Positions 52,261 to 61,574 of a DNA stretch of 61,574 nucleotides are shown piece by piece. The notes under the pieces were generated by a model that was given only the letters and a program-made list of their open reading frames with translations, had not been told where the DNA came from and did not search any database. Position numbers and translations under genes: made by a program. Source of the stretch: an uncultured Eubacteriales bacterium (lineage in GTDB: Bacteria > Bacillota > Clostridia > Christensenellales > Aristaeellaceae); NCBI GenBank assembly GCA_902764285.1, contig CACWVN010000001.1:1-61574 (forward strand), written 5' to 3'. The stretch's first letter is position 1; every line of letters begins with the position of its first letter.

Positions 52261-54723
52261 TTACGGATTGTCGGCGGCCACGGCCTTCGCGGCGGTGCGG
52301 CCGGAGACGAAGATTTCCACGATGGCGTTGCCGCCCAGGCGGTTGCCGCCGTGGATGCCGCCGGTGACCTCGCCAGCCGCATACAGGCCGGGGATGATCT
52401 CGCCGTTCTCATCCAGCACGTGGCGGCTGGTGTCGACGACCAGGCCGCCCATCGTGTGGTGGGTGGAGGGCGCCATCAGACGGATGGTCAGCAGCGCGTT
52501 GTCCAGGTCATAGGTTTCGGTCTTGTAGTTGCCGTTCTCGTCCAGCTCCACGTTGCCGATGGTGCGGGAGGCGATGGCCTTGCCCACATCCGGGAACTCG
52601 CCTTCGCCCATGACGGCCTTGTCGTAATCGCGGATCGTCTGGATGACGACCTCGGGATCGGCCTCAATGCCCAGCTGCTCGAACAGCTCCGGCAGCTCGG
52701 CGATGGTGCGGCGATAGTAGCGGCCTTCATAGTCGCCCTCGGCCAGCTGCATCGGCGCGGGCATCAGCTGTTCCTTGTTGTAGAACTCCAGGAACACGCC
52801 CTTGGTGCCGTTCACTTCCATGCCGTTCTGGAACTCGGCCAGGGACAGCACGTCGCGCTCGGAACCCTCGTCCACGAAGCGGTGGCCGGTGGTGGGGTTG
52901 ATCCAGCAGGCGTAGTTGCCGCCGCCGAAGGCCAGGTTGCCGTTGTCAACCCAGGAGATGGGCATCAGCTGGGTGAAGCCCATGCCGGTGGTCGCGGCGC
53001 CGACGGCCTGAGCCATGCGGATGCCGTCGCCGACCTGGCTGGAGCGGTTGGTGGTCTTGGTGGCGGTGGACAGGTACTCGGTGGACCAGTACACGTTGTC
53101 CGCGAGCACCATGTCGATGTTGGCGGCGTAGCCGCCGGTGGTCAGGATGACGCCCTTGGTGGCGTGCGCGGTCACTTCGGTGCCGTCCCACATGACCGCC
53201 TTGACGCCGGTCACGCGGCCGTCCTCGACGATCAGGTCGGTGGCGGTGGTGCGGGTCATCACGCTGCCCAGGCCGGAGCCCTGGATGGTGCTCATGGGCG
53301 CCATGAAGTAAGCGCCCCAGCGGCCCTGCTCGCGGGTGAACTCGTTTTCACGATACCACAGCGCGCCGATCAGCGTCTGCTGGGAATCCTCATAGAATTC
53401 CGCGCCCTGGTCTTCCAGCCACTCCTTCAGACCCTGGCCGCCTTCGATGAACTGGGTCACCAGATCCACGTTGCCGTAGATCCATTCGGACTTGTCCGCG
53501 CTCTGGCGCAGGCCGCCGTAGTAGGTCTGGAAGATGTGCAGGTTGATGGTGGAGAACAGGGTCAGCTGGTTCTCGGCCACGCCGGCGTCCAGCTGGGGCT
53601 GTGCCCAATCCAGGTATTCCTGGATCTCGGCCTTCAGGGCCTGCAGCACGGGCAGGTATTCCTGATGGACGCCGTGCTTGGACAGCTCGAGCGCGTCGCC
53701 GGCCACGAACTCGTGATCCTGGTAGAACGCCTCGTCGAAGGGCTCCTCGGACCAGTTCAGGATCATCTTCAGCTCGTCGATGCAGCCCTTCACGGACTTG
53801 ACCTTGTCGTAGGTCTGGCCGTTGTGCTCATAGACGCCGGTGGTGGCGTCGGGATCGGCGGGATCCCACACCAGGTAGGGCATCACGGACTGATACTGGC
53901 CGCCGGAAACCAGCGTGTTGCCGCCGATTTCAGCGTTCTTTTCGATCAGCAGAACGGAATTGCCTTCCTGCACGGACTGGGCCGCTGCGCCCATGCCAGC
54001 GCCGCCGGCGCCGACCACGACCACGTCGTAGGTCTGCTCGATGGGAGCGCTCGGCTCATACTCGATCTTGGCGGCCTTGAAGGCTTCCATGTTGGTGCAG
54101 CCGGCCTGCTCGGCGGTGTCGTTCACCGCGGTGCGCAGCGCGCGGGAAGAGAAGGTGGCGCCGGAGATGGCGTCCGCGCCGGAGCCGTTGGCGTCCACCA
54201 TGTCGGGGATCATCAGGTCGAAGGCGACGGTGCCGACGTGCGCGGTTTCGGCGCTGTCGACGATCTCGATGGCTTCGATCTTGTCCTCGGAGTAGGTGAC
54301 CTTCACGGTCACGGGGCCGTTGTAGCCCTCTGCGGTGGCTTCGTATTCGCCCGCGGTGAAGGCCAGCGCGGCGTCAGAGGCGCCCTCGCCGCCCGCCAGC
54401 GCGGCGTTGACGGCTTCCACGACGGCGGTGCTGGTGAAGGTCGCGCCGGTGGTCACGTCCACACCCTCGGTGGTGCCGGCTTCCAGGATGGCCGCGATCA
54501 GCGCTTCCACGCTCGTGGCGCGGTCGATGCCCGCGGTGGGATAGGTCTCGCCGGAATCATCCACGGTCAGCGCGGTGATCTTGCCGTCTTCGACGGTCAC
54601 TTCAACCTTGACTTCGCTGGCGAAGCCCTGGGCGCTGCCGGTCAGCACGTCGCCGCCTTCGGCAAACGCCATGCAGCCCAGCAGCATGCACAGGCTCAGC
54701 ATCAGTGCAACGATTTTCTTCAT
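52261..54723 (-). CDS. Extracytosolic FAD-dependent reductase lipoprotein with two FMN-binding domains
   Basis: An 820-residue lipoprotein (lipobox LLGC, Cys17). Two FMN_bind domains come first, each with the ApbE flavinylation motif: TTGAT (Thr95) and ISGAT (Thr190). A fumarate-reductase/succinate-dehydrogenase-type FAD domain follows from about residue 230 (VVVVGAGGAGMGAAA), with the catalytic-site stretches STHHTMGGL and GGIHGGNRLGGNAI. It resembles extracellular reductases such as fumarate or urocanate reductase; the acceptor is unknown. ATG at 54723 follows AAGGAGGA. It is transcribed divergently from the apbE operon, whose product should flavinylate it. Confidence 0.9.
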   Translation of the reverse strand: MKKIVALMLSLCMLLGCMAFAEGGDVLTGSAQGFASEVKVEVTVEDGKITALTVDDSGETYPTAGIDRATSVEALIAAILEAGTTEGVDVTTGATFTSTAVVEAVNAALAGGEGASDAALAFTAGEYEATAEGYNGPVTVKVTYSEDKIEAIEIVDSAETAHVGTVAFDLMIPDMVDANGSGADAISGATFSSRALRTAVNDTAEQAGCTNMEAFKAAKIEYEPSAPIEQTYDVVVVGAGGAGMGAAAQSVQEGNSVLLIEKNAEIGGNTLVSGGQYQSVMPYLVWDPADPDATTGVYEHNGQTYDKVKSVKGCIDELKMILNWSEEPFDEAFYQDHEFVAGDALELSKHGVHQEYLPVLQALKAEIQEYLDWAQPQLDAGVAENQLTLFSTINLHIFQTYYGGLRQSADKSEWIYGNVDLVTQFIEGGQGLKEWLEDQGAEFYEDSQQTLIGALWYRENEFTREQGRWGAYFMAPMSTIQGSGLGSVMTRTTATDLIVEDGRVTGVKAVMWDGTEVTAHATKGVILTTGGYAANIDMVLADNVYWSTEYLSTATKTTNRSSQVGDGIRMAQAVGAATTGMGFTQLMPISWVDNGNLAFGGGNYACWINPTTGHRFVDEGSERDVLSLAEFQNGMEVNGTKGVFLEFYNKEQLMPAPMQLAEGDYEGRYYRRTIAELPELFEQLGIEADPEVVIQTIRDYDKAVMGEGEFPDVGKAIASRTIGNVELDENGNYKTETYDLDNALLTIRLMAPSTHHTMGGLVVDTSRHVLDENGEIIPGLYAAGEVTGGIHGGNRLGGNAIVEIFVSGRTAAKAVAADNP

Positions 54724-54778
54724 ACTGTTCCTCCTTATTATGATGAGATTGTACGGGTAATCCCCATATCCACCCTAT

Positions 54779-54807
54779 ATCATATCAAAAAAAATTCTCA
54801 TAGTCAA
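54779..54807 (-). promoter_or_regulatory. Promoter of the flavin reductase gene
   Basis: TTGACT (54807-54802), 17-bp spacer ending TGA, TATGAT (54784-54779) on the minus strand. Confidence 0.75.
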
Positions 54808-54871
54808 TTCCCGCCGCGTCATTTTCGATGTCGGGATGCTCGATATTTGCGCGGCAATTCCACCGGGGGAG

Positions 54872-54900
54872 TTGATAATTCCGCCCCGAGCGGTTATAAT
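54872..54900 (+). promoter_or_regulatory. Promoter of the eetA-like/apbE operon
   Basis: TTGATA (54872-54877), 17-bp spacer, TATAAT (54895-54900). It is back-to-back with the flavin reductase promoter, allowing joint control. Confidence 0.78.
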
Positions 54901-54961
54901 GATAGATAAATACGCGCCCGCGAGCGGAGGCTTCGCCGCGCGATGCCGGAGGATGAACGCC

Positions 54962-55387
54962 GTGAAACCGAAACGCCGCCGCGCGGGGCTGCTGCCGGCG
55001 CTCCTGCTGCTGCTGGCGCTGGCGCTGGGCGCCTGCCGGGTGCAGCCGGCGAAAAGCCAGCTGTTGACGCTGGACGGCCAGCCTTGGGAGGGCGGCAGCC
55101 TTTCGCCGGAGGCCGGGGACGGCCTGCGGGTATACATCACGCTGGACGGCGCGCCGCTGGCCGACCTGCCCTTCGGCGAAGCGCACACCGTGGCGATCTG
55201 CCAGCCGGAGGGAGAAAACATCGTGGCCATCACCGGCGACGCCGTGTACATGGCGCGCGCCGACTGCGACAACCAGGACTGCGTGAACATGGGCGAAGTG
55301 ACCCGGGAAAACCTGGAAATGCGCGTGATGGGCGGCTTTATCATCTGCCTGCCGCACCGGGTTTCCGTGGAGGTGCGCGGCGATTGA
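54962..55387 (+). CDS. NusG domain II lipoprotein (EetA-like), first copy
   Basis: A 141-residue lipoprotein (LGAC lipobox at about Cys23) with a NusG-II domain. The conserved end is CDNQDCVNMGEV followed by GGFIICLPHRVSVEV. The same protein type is encoded next to EetB in the flavin-based extracellular electron transfer loci of Listeria and Lactobacillus (from memory). GTG at 54962 is used because GGAGG lies 9 nt upstream; the ATG at 54953 would abut the ribosome site. 18 nt before the Gx gene. Confidence 0.82.
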   Translation: MKPKRRRAGLLPALLLLLALALGACRVQPAKSQLLTLDGQPWEGGSLSPEAGDGLRVYITLDGAPLADLPFGEAHTVAICQPEGENIVAITGDAVYMARADCDNQDCVNMGEVTRENLEMRVMGGFIICLPHRVSVEVRGD

Positions 55388-55405
55388 CGATGCGGAGGTT
55401 GTGCT

Positions 55406-56092
55406 TTGAAACGTAAATCCACGGCGGTTGCGCTGTACGGGCTTTTGATCGCGCTGATGCTGGTGCTGGGCCTGCTGGACAAGGCCATACCGATCACCTG
55501 GTTCTTGAGCGGCGTGATCCCGGGCGTCAAGCTTGGGCTGGCCAACACGGTGCTGCTGTACGCGCTGTATCTGATGGACCGGCGCGCCGCCGCGCTGCTG
55601 ATGGTGGTCAAGGCCGTGCTGTCCGGGTTCATCTACGGCTCCGTCACCGCCATATTCATCAGCCTTTCCGGCGGCGTTTTGAGCCTTCTGGTCATGATGC
55701 TGATCAAGCGCAGCCCCAGGGCCGGCGCGCTGGGCGTCAGCGCGCTGTCGCTGGCGGGCGCCGCGTTCCTGCTGCTGCGCGGCACGAAGCTGCGGGGCGA
55801 CATGCTGTGGTGCGCGATCCTGCTGGGCCTGGCGGCGCTGGCCGGCATCGGCGCTTATCTGTACATACGCCGGCATCCGGATAACGGCGTGGTCAGCACG
55901 TCGATGGCCGGCGCGGTGGCCTTCAATATCGGCCAGACGCTGATGGCCGTGTACATCGTGCGCCTGCCGACCCAGCTGTTGTACACCTACATGCCGTTCC
56001 TGGTGGGCATGGGCGCGGTCGTGGGCTGCCTGACCGGCATCGTGTCCCGGCGCGTGTTCCGCGTATTGAAGGCGGGCGGTTTTGCGAATTGA
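55406..56092 (+). CDS. Gx transporter family membrane protein (EetB-like)
   Basis: A 228-residue protein with about six or seven membrane helices, of the family often labelled heptaprenyl diphosphate synthase component I or Gx transporter. Family segments: LLDKAIPITWFLSGVIPGVK, NTVLLYALYLMDRRAA, VLSGFIYGSVTAIFISLSGG. Members sit beside NusG-II and ApbE proteins in flavin-based electron-transfer loci, where EetB is needed but not fully understood. TTG start at 55406 follows GGAGG by 7 nt. It ends 17 nt before apbE. Confidence 0.85.
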   Translation: MKRKSTAVALYGLLIALMLVLGLLDKAIPITWFLSGVIPGVKLGLANTVLLYALYLMDRRAAALLMVVKAVLSGFIYGSVTAIFISLSGGVLSLLVMMLIKRSPRAGALGVSALSLAGAAFLLLRGTKLRGDMLWCAILLGLAALAGIGAYLYIRRHPDNGVVSTSMAGAVAFNIGQTLMAVYIVRLPTQLLYTYMPFLVGMGAVVGCLTGIVSRRVFRVLKAGGFAN

Positions 56093-56109
56093 TGATGGGA
56101 GTTTTGCCT

Positions 56110-57096
56110 ATGAAATGGCTACGCGCCGCCAGCGCGCTGATGATCCTGGCGCTGCTGTTCTGCACGCCGGGCTGCTCCGCTTCCGAGGCGAAGAAACAGA
56201 CCGCCGTGGGCTTTTACCTGGATACGGTGATCACGCTGACCGCCTACGTGGAGGATGTATCCGTTCTCCAGGACGCGCTGGAGGAATGCGGGCGCTATGA
56301 ACGCCTGCTGTCCCGGACCGTCGAAGGCAGCGACGTGTGGCGCATCAACCACGCCGGCGGACAGCCGGTGCAGGTTTCCGAGGATACGCTGGAGATCCTG
56401 CGCACGGCGCGGCGGGTCAGCGAGCTCTCCGGCGGCGCCTTCGACGTCAGCATCGCGCCGGTTTCCACGATGTGGGATTTCACCTCCGGCGCCGCGGTGC
56501 TGCCCGACGCCGACGCACTTGCCGAGGCCGCGGCGCGCGTGGATTACACCCGCGTGGAGATCGACGGCGACGCCGTTATCCTGCCCGAGGGCATGATGAT
56601 CGATCTCGGCGGCATCGCCAAGGGTTACATCGCCGACGCCGTGAAGAACTGGCTGGAGGCGCGCGGCGTGAACAGCGCGATCCTGTCCTTCGGCGGCAAC
56701 GTGGTGGCCATCGGCCTGAAGCCCGACGGCAGCCCGTGGAAGGTGGGCATCCAGGACATCGACGGCAAGACCGGCGAATACATGCTGGTCTCCCGGAACA
56801 ACGGCGGCTCAACCGTCACCAGCGGCATCTACGAGCGCGGCTTCGATGTGGACGGCACCTGGTACCACCACATCCTGGACCCGAAGACCGGCTGGCCCGT
56901 GCAGAACGAACTGGCCTCCGTGACGATCTTTTCCGAAAGCTCCATGTGGGGCGACGCCCTCGCCACCGCGGCCTTCGCCCTGGGGCGTGAAGGCGGCGCG
57001 GCGCTGATCGAAGGGCTGGACGGCATCGAGGCGGTGTTCATCGCCCGCGACCGCACCGTCAGCTTCACCTCCGGCGCCAAAGCGTACGTCGAATAG
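56110..57096 (+). CDS. apbE: FAD:protein FMN transferase lipoprotein
   Basis: A 328-residue lipoprotein (lipobox TPGC, about Cys22) that covalently attaches FMN to Thr/Ser in secreted FMN_bind domains. Motifs: MMIDLGGIAKGYIAD, ILSFGGNVVAIG, the ILDPKTGWPV segment and the Mg-binding SMWGDALATAAF. ATG at 56110 lies 8 nt after GGGAG; earlier ATGs overlap the preceding stop without a ribosome site. Likely clients in the window are the reductase at 52261-54723 and the NrfA fusion at 60285-61574. Confidence 0.94.
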   Translation: MKWLRAASALMILALLFCTPGCSASEAKKQTAVGFYLDTVITLTAYVEDVSVLQDALEECGRYERLLSRTVEGSDVWRINHAGGQPVQVSEDTLEILRTARRVSELSGGAFDVSIAPVSTMWDFTSGAAVLPDADALAEAAARVDYTRVEIDGDAVILPEGMMIDLGGIAKGYIADAVKNWLEARGVNSAILSFGGNVVAIGLKPDGSPWKVGIQDIDGKTGEYMLVSRNNGGSTVTSGIYERGFDVDGTWYHHILDPKTGWPVQNELASVTIFSESSMWGDALATAAFALGREGGAALIEGLDGIEAVFIARDRTVSFTSGAKAYVE

Positions 57097-57147
57097 ACGC
57101 CCGGGGGCCCAGGCAAACGAAAGATTGCAGGCAGGAAGGGAAAGGAT

Positions 57148-57582
57148 ATGAAGAGAATGATGATTGCGGCGCTGCTGGCGCTCGTGCTGTGCTTTGCTGC
57201 CGCGGCGGAGGTTGAAGAGACCGTCGCGCCCGTCGAATCCGGCGAGGCCGCCGCCAAACCCGCGAAGGGCTATGTGCTGGTGTCCACGGCCACGAGGATG
57301 GGCTGGCTGCCGCTGCCGGAGGAAGGGGAAATCTCCTATCCGCTGCGGCAGGTGCTGCCCGACGGCACCGAGGCGGTGAACGTGATCCACCTGACGCCGG
57401 ACGGCGTGTATATGGAAGATTCCACCTGCGAAGGTCACGACTGCGTCCAGCAGGGCGAGGTCACGCTGGAGAACCGCGACGAACGGATATTGAGCAACAT
57501 GATCATCTGCCTGCCCAACCAGGTATTTTTGCAGCTGTTTACGCCGGAGGAACTGCTGGCGATGACGCAGGCGGATCAATAA
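57148..57582 (+). CDS. NusG domain II protein (EetA-like), second copy
   Basis: A 144-residue exported protein: signal peptide about 1-20 without a lipobox, a short acidic linker, then a NusG-II domain ending CEGHDCVQQGEV and SNMIICLPNQVFLQL. It is a paralogue of the lipoprotein at 54962, but soluble or anchored only by its signal. ATG at 57148 follows AAAGGAT. Last gene of the eetA/eetB/apbE-like operon. Confidence 0.78.
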   Translation: MKRMMIAALLALVLCFAAAAEVEETVAPVESGEAAAKPAKGYVLVSTATRMGWLPLPEEGEISYPLRQVLPDGTEAVNVIHLTPDGVYMEDSTCEGHDCVQQGEVTLENRDERILSNMIICLPNQVFLQLFTPEELLAMTQADQ

Positions 57583-58095: not shown

Positions 58096-58911
58096 TTATG
58101 CGTAGCTGTGGACGCCGGGCAGCAGGGTGTTCACGCCGATGTAGGTGAACATCACGCAGATGAACCCGACGACGGCGAAGATCGCGGCGGCGCGGCCGCG
58201 CCATCCCCGGCGGATGCGCAGGTGCAGATAGGCGGCGTAGACGATCCACGTGACCAGCGACCAGGTTTCCTTCGGGTCCCAGGACCAGTAGCTGCCCCAG
58301 GCGCGCTCGGCCCAGATGGCGCCGGTGATGATCGTGAACGTCAGGAACAGCAGGCCCAGCGATACGCTGCGATAGCCGATGACGTCCAGCTTTTCCCGGT
58401 CGGGGATGTGCTGGTCCAGGAATCCCCGGGCCTTCATGCGTTCGCGCAGCAGGAATATGCCGCCCAGCACGCAGGATACGCCGAACGCGCCGTAGGCGAT
58501 GATCGCCGTGGATACGTGGAAGGCCAGCCAGTTGCTGCGCAGCGAGGGCATCAGTTCGCGCACCTCGCGGCTCTGCATCGCGGCGTAGCCGATGATCAGG
58601 AACGTGACCGGCGCGGAGAACGCGCCCAGCACCGGGAATTTGAATTTCAGCACGAAGATCAGGCTGACCAGCGACACGCCCCAGGCGAAGGACGTGGCGA
58701 ATTCGTACTGGTTCGTCAGCGGCAGCCGGCCCGCCGCGATGCCGCGGCACACCAGCGCGGCGGTGTGCAGCGCCAGCCCCGCGGCCTGCAGGGCCACCGC
58801 TGCCCGGGCGAGCTTGTCGCGCCTGGCGGCGATGAACGCGAAGTACAGGATCATCGACGCGAAGCAGATCAGCATGACGAGGGTGAACAGCGTATTTTCC
58901 ACTTGAAGCAT
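58096..58911 (-). CDS. ccsA: Cytochrome c biogenesis protein CcsA/ResC
   Basis: A 271-residue membrane protein with about eight helices. The heme-handling WWD motif reads WGSYWSWDPKETW, and conserved His residues are in WLAFHVSTA and near the C-terminus (VHSYA). With ResB it forms the system II cytochrome c synthase that exports heme and ligates it to CXXCH motifs. ATG at 58911 follows AAAGGAA and is 5 nt after resB. Its presence in a Clostridia-type genome is explained by the NrfA gene upstream. Confidence 0.93.
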   Translation of the reverse strand: MLQVENTLFTLVMLICFASMILYFAFIAARRDKLARAAVALQAAGLALHTAALVCRGIAAGRLPLTNQYEFATSFAWGVSLVSLIFVLKFKFPVLGAFSAPVTFLIIGYAAMQSREVRELMPSLRSNWLAFHVSTAIIAYGAFGVSCVLGGIFLLRERMKARGFLDQHIPDREKLDVIGYRSVSLGLLFLTFTIITGAIWAERAWGSYWSWDPKETWSLVTWIVYAAYLHLRIRRGWRGRAAAIFAVVGFICVMFTYIGVNTLLPGVHSYA

Positions 58912-58916
58912 TTCGA

Positions 58917-60215
58917 TTATTCCTTTCCGGGGGATTGCCGATTGTTCTGTTCCACGGCGGCCGTGAACCGGTCGCGGAACAGCGCGCCGCCCTTGCGGCT
59001 CTGGCCGAAGACCGTCCAGCCGCCCTCGGCGCTGCGGACGGCCCAGACCTTCGCGGGCTGGACGTAGAAGGCCAGCGCCAGCCCCGCCAGCGTCACCAGC
59101 CCGCCCAGCAGCGCCAGCCACGTGAAATGATCCACCTTGATCTGGATCAGCGTGTAGGGGCGCGGGTTGACGAAGCGGATCTCGTATTCGTTGACGGTGA
59201 TGGTCTGCCCGGCCGTCAGCACGTTCTGGCCGACGATCTCCCTCTGGTAATAGATGGAATACCGGTAGGCCGGGTTGTTCAGCCGGTCGGAGACGGTGCC
59301 GGGGCCCACGTCGGGGAGTATCGCGTAATCGGGATAAAGGGCGTCCAGCATAATGACCAGCTGCGGCCTGTCCGCCACGGGCAGAAACTCCCCGGCGCAC
59401 AGCGTATCGCTTTGCAGCAGGGCCCCGTCCTTCAGGATCTCGATGTCCGCTGCCCAGCCGGTGGAGTTCTGATAGAACTTCATGCCGGCCAGAGCGGCGG
59501 GATGGTTCACGCTGACGGACGCGCTGCCGCCGTCCGGACCGGCGCTGGCGGTATTCGCCACGGTGATGTCCGTAGTGTACTGGGCCGCGCTGCCGTCCTC
59601 GTGGGTATCCACGCGGAAATCGTCGATGGTCAGGCAATAGGGGGTGTCCCCGATCTGCCGGGTCTGGCCGGGCACGCCGTAGACGGTGTACTGCCTCTGC
59701 GTCATCTGGCCCAGTCCGAAGCCCAGGATCAGCATCAGTATACCCAGATGGCATACCCACGCGCCCCAGCGCCCGGCGCCGTTCTTCGCGGAAAACAGCG
59801 CCTCGCGGCCCTCGGCGTCCCGGCATTCCACCGGCGCGGGCATGCGCAGCGCGCGGAACACGGCCTTCGGGTCGGCGACGTTCTCCGCCCGGGCGTCGCC
59901 TTCGCTCCGCAGCGCGTTCTCCGGCCGGCCGTCGGCCTTCGCGGCGCGGATCAGCTTTGGCAGGCGAATGAGGTTGCACAGCGTCAGATTCAGGCACAGA
60001 AAGCCGGTGATGACGATGAACCACCCGCTGTGAAACGCGTCGTTCAGCCCCAGCGCCATGATCCACGCGGCGGCGCGCTGGGAATAATGCCGGGCGTACC
60101 AATCGGCGGTCTGGCCCTGCGTAACAAGACTGCCGACCGAGCAGGCGGCGGCCAGCACGATCAGCAGCAGTATGGCGAACCTCATGGAGGATATGAATTT
60201 CCAGATCTTCTTCAT
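58917..60215 (-). CDS. resB: Cytochrome c biogenesis protein ResB/Ccs1
   Basis: A 432-residue membrane protein: three N-terminal helices (about 8-28, 60-80, 150-170), a large extracytoplasmic domain with SVNHPAALAGMKFYQNSTGW, and a C-terminal helix (about 370-395). This is the standard ResB/Ccs1 layout. Together with CcsA it attaches heme to the pentaheme NrfA encoded upstream. ATG at 60215 is preceded by AAAGGTT; the frame upstream of it is non-homologous. It follows the nrfA gene by 69 bp, which contain a hairpin. Confidence 0.92.
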   Translation of the reverse strand: MKKIWKFISSMRFAILLLIVLAAACSVGSLVTQGQTADWYARHYSQRAAAWIMALGLNDAFHSGWFIVITGFLCLNLTLCNLIRLPKLIRAAKADGRPENALRSEGDARAENVADPKAVFRALRMPAPVECRDAEGREALFSAKNGAGRWGAWVCHLGILMLILGFGLGQMTQRQYTVYGVPGQTRQIGDTPYCLTIDDFRVDTHEDGSAAQYTTDITVANTASAGPDGGSASVSVNHPAALAGMKFYQNSTGWAADIEILKDGALLQSDTLCAGEFLPVADRPQLVIMLDALYPDYAILPDVGPGTVSDRLNNPAYRYSIYYQREIVGQNVLTAGQTITVNEYEIRFVNPRPYTLIQIKVDHFTWLALLGGLVTLAGLALAFYVQPAKVWAVRSAEGGWTVFGQSRKGGALFRDRFTAAVEQNNRQSPGKE

Positions 60216-60230
60216 GAAGGAACCTTTCGG

Positions 60231-60269
60231 AAAAGCGGGGAGGCGCGGCATCCGCCGCAGCTTCCCCGC
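60231..60269 (-). terminator. Intercistronic hairpin between nrfA and resB
   Basis: Outer stem 60235-60241 with 60263-60269 and inner stem 60245-60249 with 60254-60258, followed on the minus strand by TTTT. Probably a partial terminator that keeps assembly genes below nrfA levels. Confidence 0.5.
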
Positions 60270-60284
60270 CGCAGTTCATGGGGT

Positions 60285-61574
60285 TTACGGGTTCAGCAGG
60301 GTCATGGCCTCGTCGATCTTGCCATCGGCGACCTCCAGGCAGTGCAGGTCCAGCGCGGAGTTGTGCGCGCCTTCGGAGTTCTCCACGTAGCTGAAATCGA
60401 AGAACCACTGCGCCTCGCGGTGCAGCTTGCGCACGGCGTTCAGCTCGTCCTCGGACATCTTGCCCTCGGTGACCGCCGCGGCCAGCGCTTCCTTCAAACC
60501 GGCCAGCTTGTTGCCCACCTCGGTCTCGCGGGCGGTGACGTTCGCCTGGATGCCGTGGACGTACTCGACCATGTCGGTGCTGCCGTGGCACTTGGCGCAG
60601 CTGTTCAGCAGCGCCTCGTTCTCCAGCGGGCTGACCAGGAAATGGCTGCGGTATTCCGTGCCGCCCTCTGTCGTCTCCGTGGGCATGTGGCAGTCCGCGC
60701 AGCTCAGCAGCGCGGCATGCTTGCCCTGCAGGAAGGTCTCCATCTCCGGGTGCTGCGCCTTCAGCAGCCGCGTGCCCGTGGATTCCTGCGTCCAGTCGGC
60801 GAAGTCCAGCGCGTCGTAGTAGGCCAGGATCGCCTCGGGCGTCATCTCCTCCACGCTGTGATAGGGCATCATGGCCTCGCTGTCCTCGGGCGTGAAGTAG
60901 TATTCGATGTGGCACTGGCCGCAGGACAGCACAGATGCGTCGATGGTGGACACGTTGTCACCCAGCGCCTCGTTCACGTACTGGTGGGTGACCGCCAGCG
61001 CGCCGTCATTGCCGTTATCCGCGCCGTGGCAGCTGTAGCAGCTGACGTTCTGCTTCATCTGCGGCATGACCTCGTCGAAGGGCATCGAGTACACGGCCAC
61101 GCCCTGTTCCTCGATCATCTTGTGCAGGTCCGGCGTCTTGCAGGTGATGCAGTTGGCCTTGGGATGCGGCCGCTGGGTCTTGGCGACGTCCTCCAGCGTG
61201 TATTCGTGGCCGCGGGCGCTGCCATAGTCCTTGGCAAAGCCGTAGCCTTCGTAGATGGTGACCAGGTACGGGTCCTGCTCCAGGTAGTCGATCACGTAGC
61301 TGTTGTCCTTGTTGGCGCCCATGCTCACGACGATCTGGGGAAGGATCTCCGCCATCCGCGCAGCGTCCGCTTCCGCGGCCTCCGCGGGCTCGGCTTCGGG
61401 CTCGGCGGGCTTGGTTTCCGCTTCCGCGGGCGCAGGTTCGGCGGGTGCTTCACCCTCGCCGGAGGCCTGGGCCATCAGCTCGGCGACGGCTTCCTGGACC
61501 GCGGTGGAGGAGACCGTGACGCCGGAGATGGCGTCCACGGACTGCTTCGCCACGATCTGGTCGGCCCAGCCGCT
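60285..61574 (-). CDS. nrfA: NrfA-type pentaheme cytochrome c nitrite reductase with N-terminal FMN-binding segment (5' end outside window)
   Basis: The open frame runs off the right edge; 429 residues are visible. Five heme sites occur in NrfA order: CITCK (61153-61137, Lys-ligated catalytic heme), CYSCH (61039-61025), CGQCH (60923-60909), CADCH (60701-60687) and CAKCH (60599-60585). NrfA landmarks are QCHIEYYFTPED, LKAQHPEMETF and the C-terminal HREAQWFFDF. On the N-terminal side lies VDAISGVTVSSTAVQEAV, a good FMN_bind flavinylation motif (Thr of SGVT), joined by a Pro/Glu/Ala-rich linker of about 45 residues. It should reduce nitrite to ammonium outside the membrane. No NrfH is seen in the window. 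Confidence 0.9.
   Translation of the reverse strand, partial: SGWADQIVAKQSVDAISGVTVSSTAVQEAVAELMAQASGEGEAPAEPAPAEAETKPAEPEAEPAEAAEADAARMAEILPQIVVSMGANKDNSYVIDYLEQDPYLVTIYEGYGFAKDYGSARGHEYTLEDVAKTQRPHPKANCITCKTPDLHKMIEEQGVAVYSMPFDEVMPQMKQNVSCYSCHGADNGNDGALAVTHQYVNEALGDNVSTIDASVLSCGQCHIEYYFTPEDSEAMMPYHSVEEMTPEAILAYYDALDFADWTQESTGTRLLKAQHPEMETFLQGKHAALLSCADCHMPTETTEGGTEYRSHFLVSPLENEALLNSCAKCHGSTDMVEYVHGIQANVTARETEVGNKLAGLKEALAAAVTEGKMSEDELNAVRKLHREAQWFFDFSYVENSEGAHNSALDLHCLEVADGKIDEAMTLLNP

Follow-up and report, generated by a model that had tools for sequence, protein, structure and literature searches.

The pentaheme nitrite reductase NrfA encoded at the end of the analysed DNA is fused to two FMN_bind domains, and its gene directly follows those of an Rnf complex. 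We propose that this protein, FMN2-NrfA, is the terminal reductase of the Rnf operon, with electrons passing from ferredoxin or NADH through Rnf and FMN to NrfA, where nitrite would be reduced; we give this reading a probability of about 0.78. As far as sequence can tell, it is a known enzyme in a new wiring: a conserved NrfA clade stands beside Rnf genes, and many of its members have added FMN domains.

The analysed stretch of 61,574 nucleotides, referred to as the window, is an entire contig of a draft genome (2.8 Mb in 176 contigs, 94.18% complete, 3.78% contaminated), and its end is hence an assembly break. The NrfA open reading frame (60285–61574, minus strand) encodes 429 residues and runs open off this end, so that the gene is truncated at its 5′ end. 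The first 99 bases of another contig of the same genome, C139, are identical to the last 99 of the window and match residues 1–33 of the window protein at 100%. The opposite end of C139 overlaps a third contig, C12, and both joins are exactly 99 bases long; such equal overlaps are presumably the trace left by a graph assembler at a break, which here falls within the FMN_bind repeat. C139 adds the N-terminus of the protein, namely a hydrophobic helix followed by a complete FMN_bind domain and almost all of a second, with two FMN_bind stretches recognised by Pfam. By hand count from the likely ATG, the joined protein has approximately 641–644 residues. From N- to C-terminus, it is composed of the helix, FMN_bind 1 (SGAT), a linker, FMN_bind 2 (SGVT), a second linker and NrfA, both linkers being of the Pro/Glu/Ala type. 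Judging from the helix, the protein is predicted to be membrane-anchored and extracytosolic.

Of the second FMN_bind domain, the window itself contains the C-terminal portion (61476–61574, minus strand), as assigned by Pfam and by identity to the 99 bases with which C139 starts; the front of the domain is on C139. This fragment matches PF04205 at residues 10–33, scoring 21.9 bits where the cut-off is 22, and its VDAISGVT motif contains the candidate flavinylated Thr (61515–61517, minus strand). With C139 added, two PF04205 domains with the flavinylation motifs SGAT and SGVT are present, and both are predicted to carry covalent FMN. The translation then runs through a Pro/Glu/Ala-rich linker and the N-terminal edge of NrfA (61305–61475, minus strand) to the PF02335 match, which starts at residue 91. 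The earlier note had described this frame as an FMN_bind domain fused to a pentaheme NrfA, with an SGVT motif, a Pro/Glu/Ala linker and five heme sites including CITCK. All of these are in the frame, and the fusion is borne out by C139, which completes the protein. The upstream extension that the note had called for thus completed one FMN_bind domain and yielded another.

The NrfA domain (60285–61304, minus strand) was assigned by Pfam and by the match of a relative's structural model to NrfA structures. Residues 91–427 match positions 30–380 of the 438-position PF02335 profile (Cytochrom_C552) with an E value of 2.8e-78. The first 29 and last 58 positions of the profile are unmatched, and owing to the latter the C-terminus looks short. 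All five heme sites lie on the minus strand. The first is CITCK (61137–61151), the catalytic heme site with the Lys ligand, whose CxxCK pattern is invariant in 27 aligned sequences; it is followed by CYSCH (61026–61040), CGQCH (60909–60923), CADCH (60687–60701) and CAKCH (60585–60599). After CGQCH comes IEYYF, which the alignment to E. coli NrfA places in the active-site Tyr region. RGH, CxxCK, EYYF and KAQHPE all align with the E. coli enzyme, and the Arg, the CxxCK Lys, the Glu-Tyr-Tyr and the Lys, Gln and His of KAQHPE do not vary among the 27 sequences. The nearest solved proteins are the NrfA enzymes of Shewanella, E. coli and Wolinella. An AlphaFold2 model of the relative at locus L022 (809 residues, three FMN domains) is of modest confidence, with a mean pLDDT of 70.8 and a pTM of 0.48. 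It displays three similar strand-helix units, the FMN domains, with pLDDT mostly 63–95, along with an NrfA-like region. The best structural match of the NrfA region is 3ubr (E 1.4e-15), and the FMN-domain structure 8p2b matches only at an E value of 0.03; the model carries no information on docking. Nitrite is the putative substrate of FMN2-NrfA; NO and hydroxylamine are further substrates of NrfA enzymes.

The same residues bear on whether the multi-heme domain is an enzyme at all. It could instead be a non-enzymatic conduit through which Rnf passes electrons to other acceptors, in the manner of MmcA. The accessible texts on Methanosarcina acetivorans describe a multiheme cytochrome, MmcA, that likewise works with Rnf (PMC12174285, PMC11024163), and the authors of the eLife 2021 survey, as far as its accessible text goes, suggested that multi-flavinylated RNF has a role in bifurcated transfer (PMC8238504). 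However, MmcA is described as passing electrons to methanophenazine or to acceptors outside the cell and not as a nitrite reductase, and a pure conduit need not retain the CxxCK heme and the active-site Arg, Tyr, His, Gln and Lys that are invariant in the alignment. We therefore regard a conduit as improbable.

The FMN fusion recurs among relatives. A scan of contigs gave 318 matches, the best 80 of which correspond to 79 distinct named loci. In 22 of the 79, FMN_bind domains are found in the NrfA frame on a single contig, one to six in number as counted with a profile built in this analysis. Fused frames also occur in four genomes of one or two contigs (L146, L156, L160 and L165). Since the gene under study is split across contigs at an FMN_bind repeat, its fusion might be suspected to be an artefact of assembly or frame, but these uninterrupted frames refute that for the family, and we assign it next to no probability. 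Across relatives, the FMN domains are placed before NrfA, after it or on both sides. In 29 fused proteins with a total of 108 FMN domains, the attachment position is Thr in 101 and Ser in 7, and both domains of L035 are among those with Ser for Thr; Ser replaces the motif Gly in 8 of the 108. The FMN domains of L037 lie upstream but in other frames, and L027 begins at a contig edge, beyond which FMN domains could lie. In three loci beside Rnf genes, a single chain combines FMN_bind, a FAD_binding_2-type domain and NrfA (L049:755-4411, L050:8249-11167 and L146:6764-9718, the last on a 3.26-Mb contig). For L050, the nearest match of the FAD domain is flavocytochrome c3 fumarate reductase (E 7.7e-109). 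At L067:9779-12232, downstream of rnfB, a single frame of 817 residues contains two tandem NrfA domains with ten heme motifs.

The genes upstream of NrfA were found on the two joined contigs. C139 carries rnfB, rnfA, rnfE and an rnfD-rnfG fusion (PF03116 and PF04205 in one ORF), and rnfC is on C12. All subunits of an Rnf complex are thereby identified by Pfam and NCBIfam, and no second RnfC in the genome exceeds the curated cut-off. The gene order is rnfC-rnfDG-rnfE-rnfA-rnfB-FMN2NrfA-resB-resC, with approximately 25 bp, counted by hand, between rnfB and the NrfA ATG. The last two genes are in the window on the minus strand: resB, for cytochrome c maturation (58917–60251, PF05140, E 1.1e-56), is next in the operon, and resC/ccsA, for cytochrome c assembly, follows (58096–58905, PF01578, E 5.7e-56). 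The earlier note had seen no electron donor for NrfA. This is true of the window, but not beyond it, as the Rnf genes follow immediately upstream on the two contigs joined to it. Because these genes directly precede that of NrfA, Rnf is the probable donor absent from the window, and the note's suggestion of a covalent FMN as a built-in point of electron entry fits such a donor.

This arrangement is conserved among the best 80 of the 318 relatives. rnfB lies upstream of NrfA in 71 of the 79 named loci, and all five Rnf ORFs do so in 65. Between the stop codon of rnfB and the first ATG in the NrfA frame, the median distance is 15 bp (n = 71), and it is at most 150 bp in 66 of the 71; the five larger gaps are in L046, L061, L062, L064 and L097. 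Two of these, L061:6930-9823 and L097:6903-9086, have a TatC gene and FMN/FAD reductases between rnfB and nrfA. Eight loci are without rnfB, six of them at or near contig ends (L027, L028, L030, L033, L037 and L052); in L054 and L073 other DNA occupies the expected position, and both belong to the Rnf-linked NrfA clade described below. On the other side of NrfA, resB is found downstream in 77 of the 79. RnfD and RnfG share one ORF in the loci showing RnfD (L101:2839-4275, minus strand, and L022-L100). Two genomes of the same genus have a second Rnf-like cluster (L124:5128-7875 and L125) with an eight-domain FMN_bind protein and ApbE adjacent; in that of L124, RnfD is separate. We had considered that FMN might be required for the link between Rnf and NrfA, and dropped this because 52 of the 71 rnfB-linked named loci have no FMN in the NrfA frame. 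For the same reason, the FMN domains look like a relay added onto an existing Rnf–NrfA link rather than a strict requirement.

Aside from the operon, the window contains genes for flavin chemistry. The earlier note had placed ApbE 3.2 kb away, and this flavin transferase is indeed encoded at that distance from the NrfA ORF on the opposite strand (56089–57096, plus strand; PF02424, E 4.9e-85); it is the likely maturase of the FMN_bind domains. ApbE belongs to a group of genes at 52261–57582 that also encodes two NusG_II proteins, Hpre_diP_synt_I and a flavin reductase containing two FMN_bind domains. The closest solved structure to the flavin reductase is urocanate reductase. The group is likely a second extracytosolic flavin system adjoining the NrfA operon, and its ApbE, NusG_II and Hpre_diP_synt_I genes presumably resemble an Eet-type system. 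With these three kinds of genes 2.7–5.4 kb from that of NrfA, their products might be the electron source and the adjacency of Rnf incidental. They are, however, on the opposite strand, and the steady neighbour among the 79 loci is Rnf, homologues of NusG_II, Hpre or ApbE being present in three (L053, L066 and L097) within flanks of up to 10 kb that are shorter in many loci. A donor from this group is accordingly quite unlikely, even more so than a conduit role.

We then inspected the genomes for the usual donors. Characterised NrfA is fed from quinol by NrfH or NrfBCD. In keeping with the earlier note, no normal nrfH lies directly upstream, and NrfH (PF03264) had no match in any of 36 genomes (22 of the same genus and 14 others, with a positive E. 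coli control) or of 54 NrfA-bearing genomes, G044 being common to both sets. The NrfH partner of an NrfHA complex was thus not found in the genomes searched. UbiA (PF01040) is needed for the known menaquinone routes. It had no match in the 22 genomes of the genus, with 14 of 14 controls positive, and one match in the whole set of 36. Eight of the 54 NrfA-bearing genomes have a UbiA match, seven above the cut-off and one, G497, below it; those above are distributed as 3 of 28 Rnf-associated genomes (outside the genus under study, G505 counted in) versus 4 of 26 others. The molybdopterin oxidoreductase family PF00384 matched 3 of 21 genomes and had no match in the genome under study. As this genome is 94% complete, any absence from it could be a gap. 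NrfH, UbiA and PF00384 had no match in the four FMN-NrfA genomes of one or two contigs (G525, G564, G593 and G613).

From the absence of a PF00384 match it follows that nitrite is probably taken from outside, which is also what one would expect if the Rnf-fed NrfA served mainly to shield a fermenting cell against external nitrite or NO, with little energy conservation. The known action of NrfA enzymes on NO would suit such detoxification as well. Detoxification needs no coupling to an ion pump, though, and the position of NrfA behind ion-pump genes in 71 of the 79 named relatives argues for use of the pump; we consider a mainly protective role possible but not probable.

The Rnf linkage is not a general property of NrfA in these bacteria. 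With the genome under study included, PF02335 was found in 4 of 391 genomes drawn class-wide, 64 of 250 from the family and 18 of 396 from the order. Rnf is upstream of NrfA in 25 of 53 further family, order and class regions, and for this reason the notion that every NrfA without NrfH in these bacteria is Rnf-linked was dropped. One of the other 28, L141 (genome G505), has the same gene set in a different order, as does L242 (G505:C4): nrfA-resB-resC and a FAD/FMN reductase, then rnfC-rnfDG-rnfE-rnfA-rnfB downstream on the same strand. Single RnfB-like matches at L164 and L185 were rejected as other iron-sulfur proteins. The remaining regions of the 28 showed no Rnf ORF in flanks of approximately 6 kb, often cut shorter by the end of a contig, and a standalone NrfA is meant here as one with no Rnf seen in these flanks. 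In the 28 regions, the CxxCH motif is absent from all listed ORFs directly upstream of NrfA. The non-Rnf-linked loci among L135-L175, together with L184-L187, have nrfA-resB(-resC) with no Rnf or NrfH-like ORF seen adjacent.

Across the phylum, PF02335 was matched in 70 of 398 genomes drawn (own genome included), and the best listed identity outside the own genome is 41%. We used 40 NrfA loci as controls, a non-random sample mostly from the top of this 70-genome list. A tetraheme NrfH-like neighbour, defined as an ORF with at least three CxxCH within 600 bp, is present in 23 of them and neither NrfH-like nor Rnf genes in 17; in the regions around these NrfA genes, Rnf and FMN fusion were each found in 0 of 40. 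A tree of NrfA was built by a quick method from 133 rows, reduced to 119 by merging those whose last 330 residues are identical. The Rnf-linked NrfA form one clade of 91 rows (SH-aLRT 98), including L054, L073 and the six contig-edge rows, and L141 is its sister (92 rows, SH-aLRT 99). Nested in the Rnf-linked clade is an FMN clade of 30 rows (SH-aLRT 100), of which 28 have in-frame FMN and two, L027 and L037, do not; L050 bears FMN but falls outside it. The simplest history would be that NrfA first joined the rnf genes and gained FMN domains later.

Among known systems, NrfHA, for instance that of Desulfovibrio vulgaris (2j7a), shares the pentaheme NrfA, the CxxCK site and the residues of the active site, and NrfA structures are the best solved relatives. 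The present system differs in having no NrfH match, no UbiA in its own genus, Rnf neighbours and fused FMN_bind. Sporomusa ovata, according to the accessible text of its report, has NrfH1A1 plus a separate rnfCDGEAB (PMC12780646). In the parts accessible, the eLife 2021 survey reports multi-flavinylated, multi-heme "RnfG" proteins in Christensenellales, which, as here, combine FMN_bind repeats and a multi-heme domain within an RNF gene cluster and are probably the FMN-NrfA family (PMC8238504). That description takes one sentence and a figure panel, which speak of an RnfG bearing a cytochrome domain, whereas here a separate RnfG, fused to RnfD, lies beside FMN-NrfA; the word NrfA is absent from the paper, whose nitrite-reductase sentence is about NapH-like systems (PMC8238504). 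The flavinylated fumarate and urocanate reductases (FMN_bind and FAD_binding_2) described in that text similarly use an ApbE-type FMN_bind to tie a reductase domain to an electron transport chain (PMC8238504), but their reductase is a FAD enzyme and the present one a pentaheme NrfA. Nothing closer than the eLife survey was found in the literature covered, supplements and most subscription papers lying outside it. The mSystems 2024 text has no "nitrite" (PMC11334425), and neither "nitrite" nor "nitrate" occurs in the accessible part of the 2025 RNF/NQR review (PMC12174285). In its accessible part, the ISME J 2019 study deals with the expression of nrfA in the rumen by selenomonads and Wolinella, with non-hydrogenotroph reads excluded, and has no "Rnf" (PMC6776011).

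In the Rnf-to-NrfA route that we propose, reduced ferredoxin or NADH would enter Rnf via RnfB/RnfC, and electrons would traverse the membrane to reach the FMN of RnfG, which in this operon is fused to RnfD. From there they would move through the tethered FMN domains and along the hemes as far as the Lys-ligated one, at which nitrite would be converted to ammonium. Rnf would move ions during electron transfer, with ResB/ResC attaching the hemes and ApbE the flavins. Physical or functional contact between Rnf and NrfA is suggested by the conserved gene order; in the proposed route, Rnf would deliver electrons to NrfA and not to NAD alone. The broader proposition, which we consider somewhat more probable than not, is a quinone-free nitrite respiration in rumen-type Clostridia. 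Rnf would serve as the respiratory dehydrogenase, with a covalent-flavin array as its direct link to NrfA; those members whose chain also includes a fumarate-reductase-type FAD domain would have two terminal reductases on one Rnf-fed polypeptide. The loci present a visible series, from NrfA with no adjacent Rnf through Rnf-linked NrfA to flavin-fused NrfA. If our reading is true, it would name a rumen electron sink that may compete with methane formation under nitrate feeding, and Rnf would form a complete respiratory chain, from ferredoxin/NADH to nitrite, in fermenters believed to lack one.
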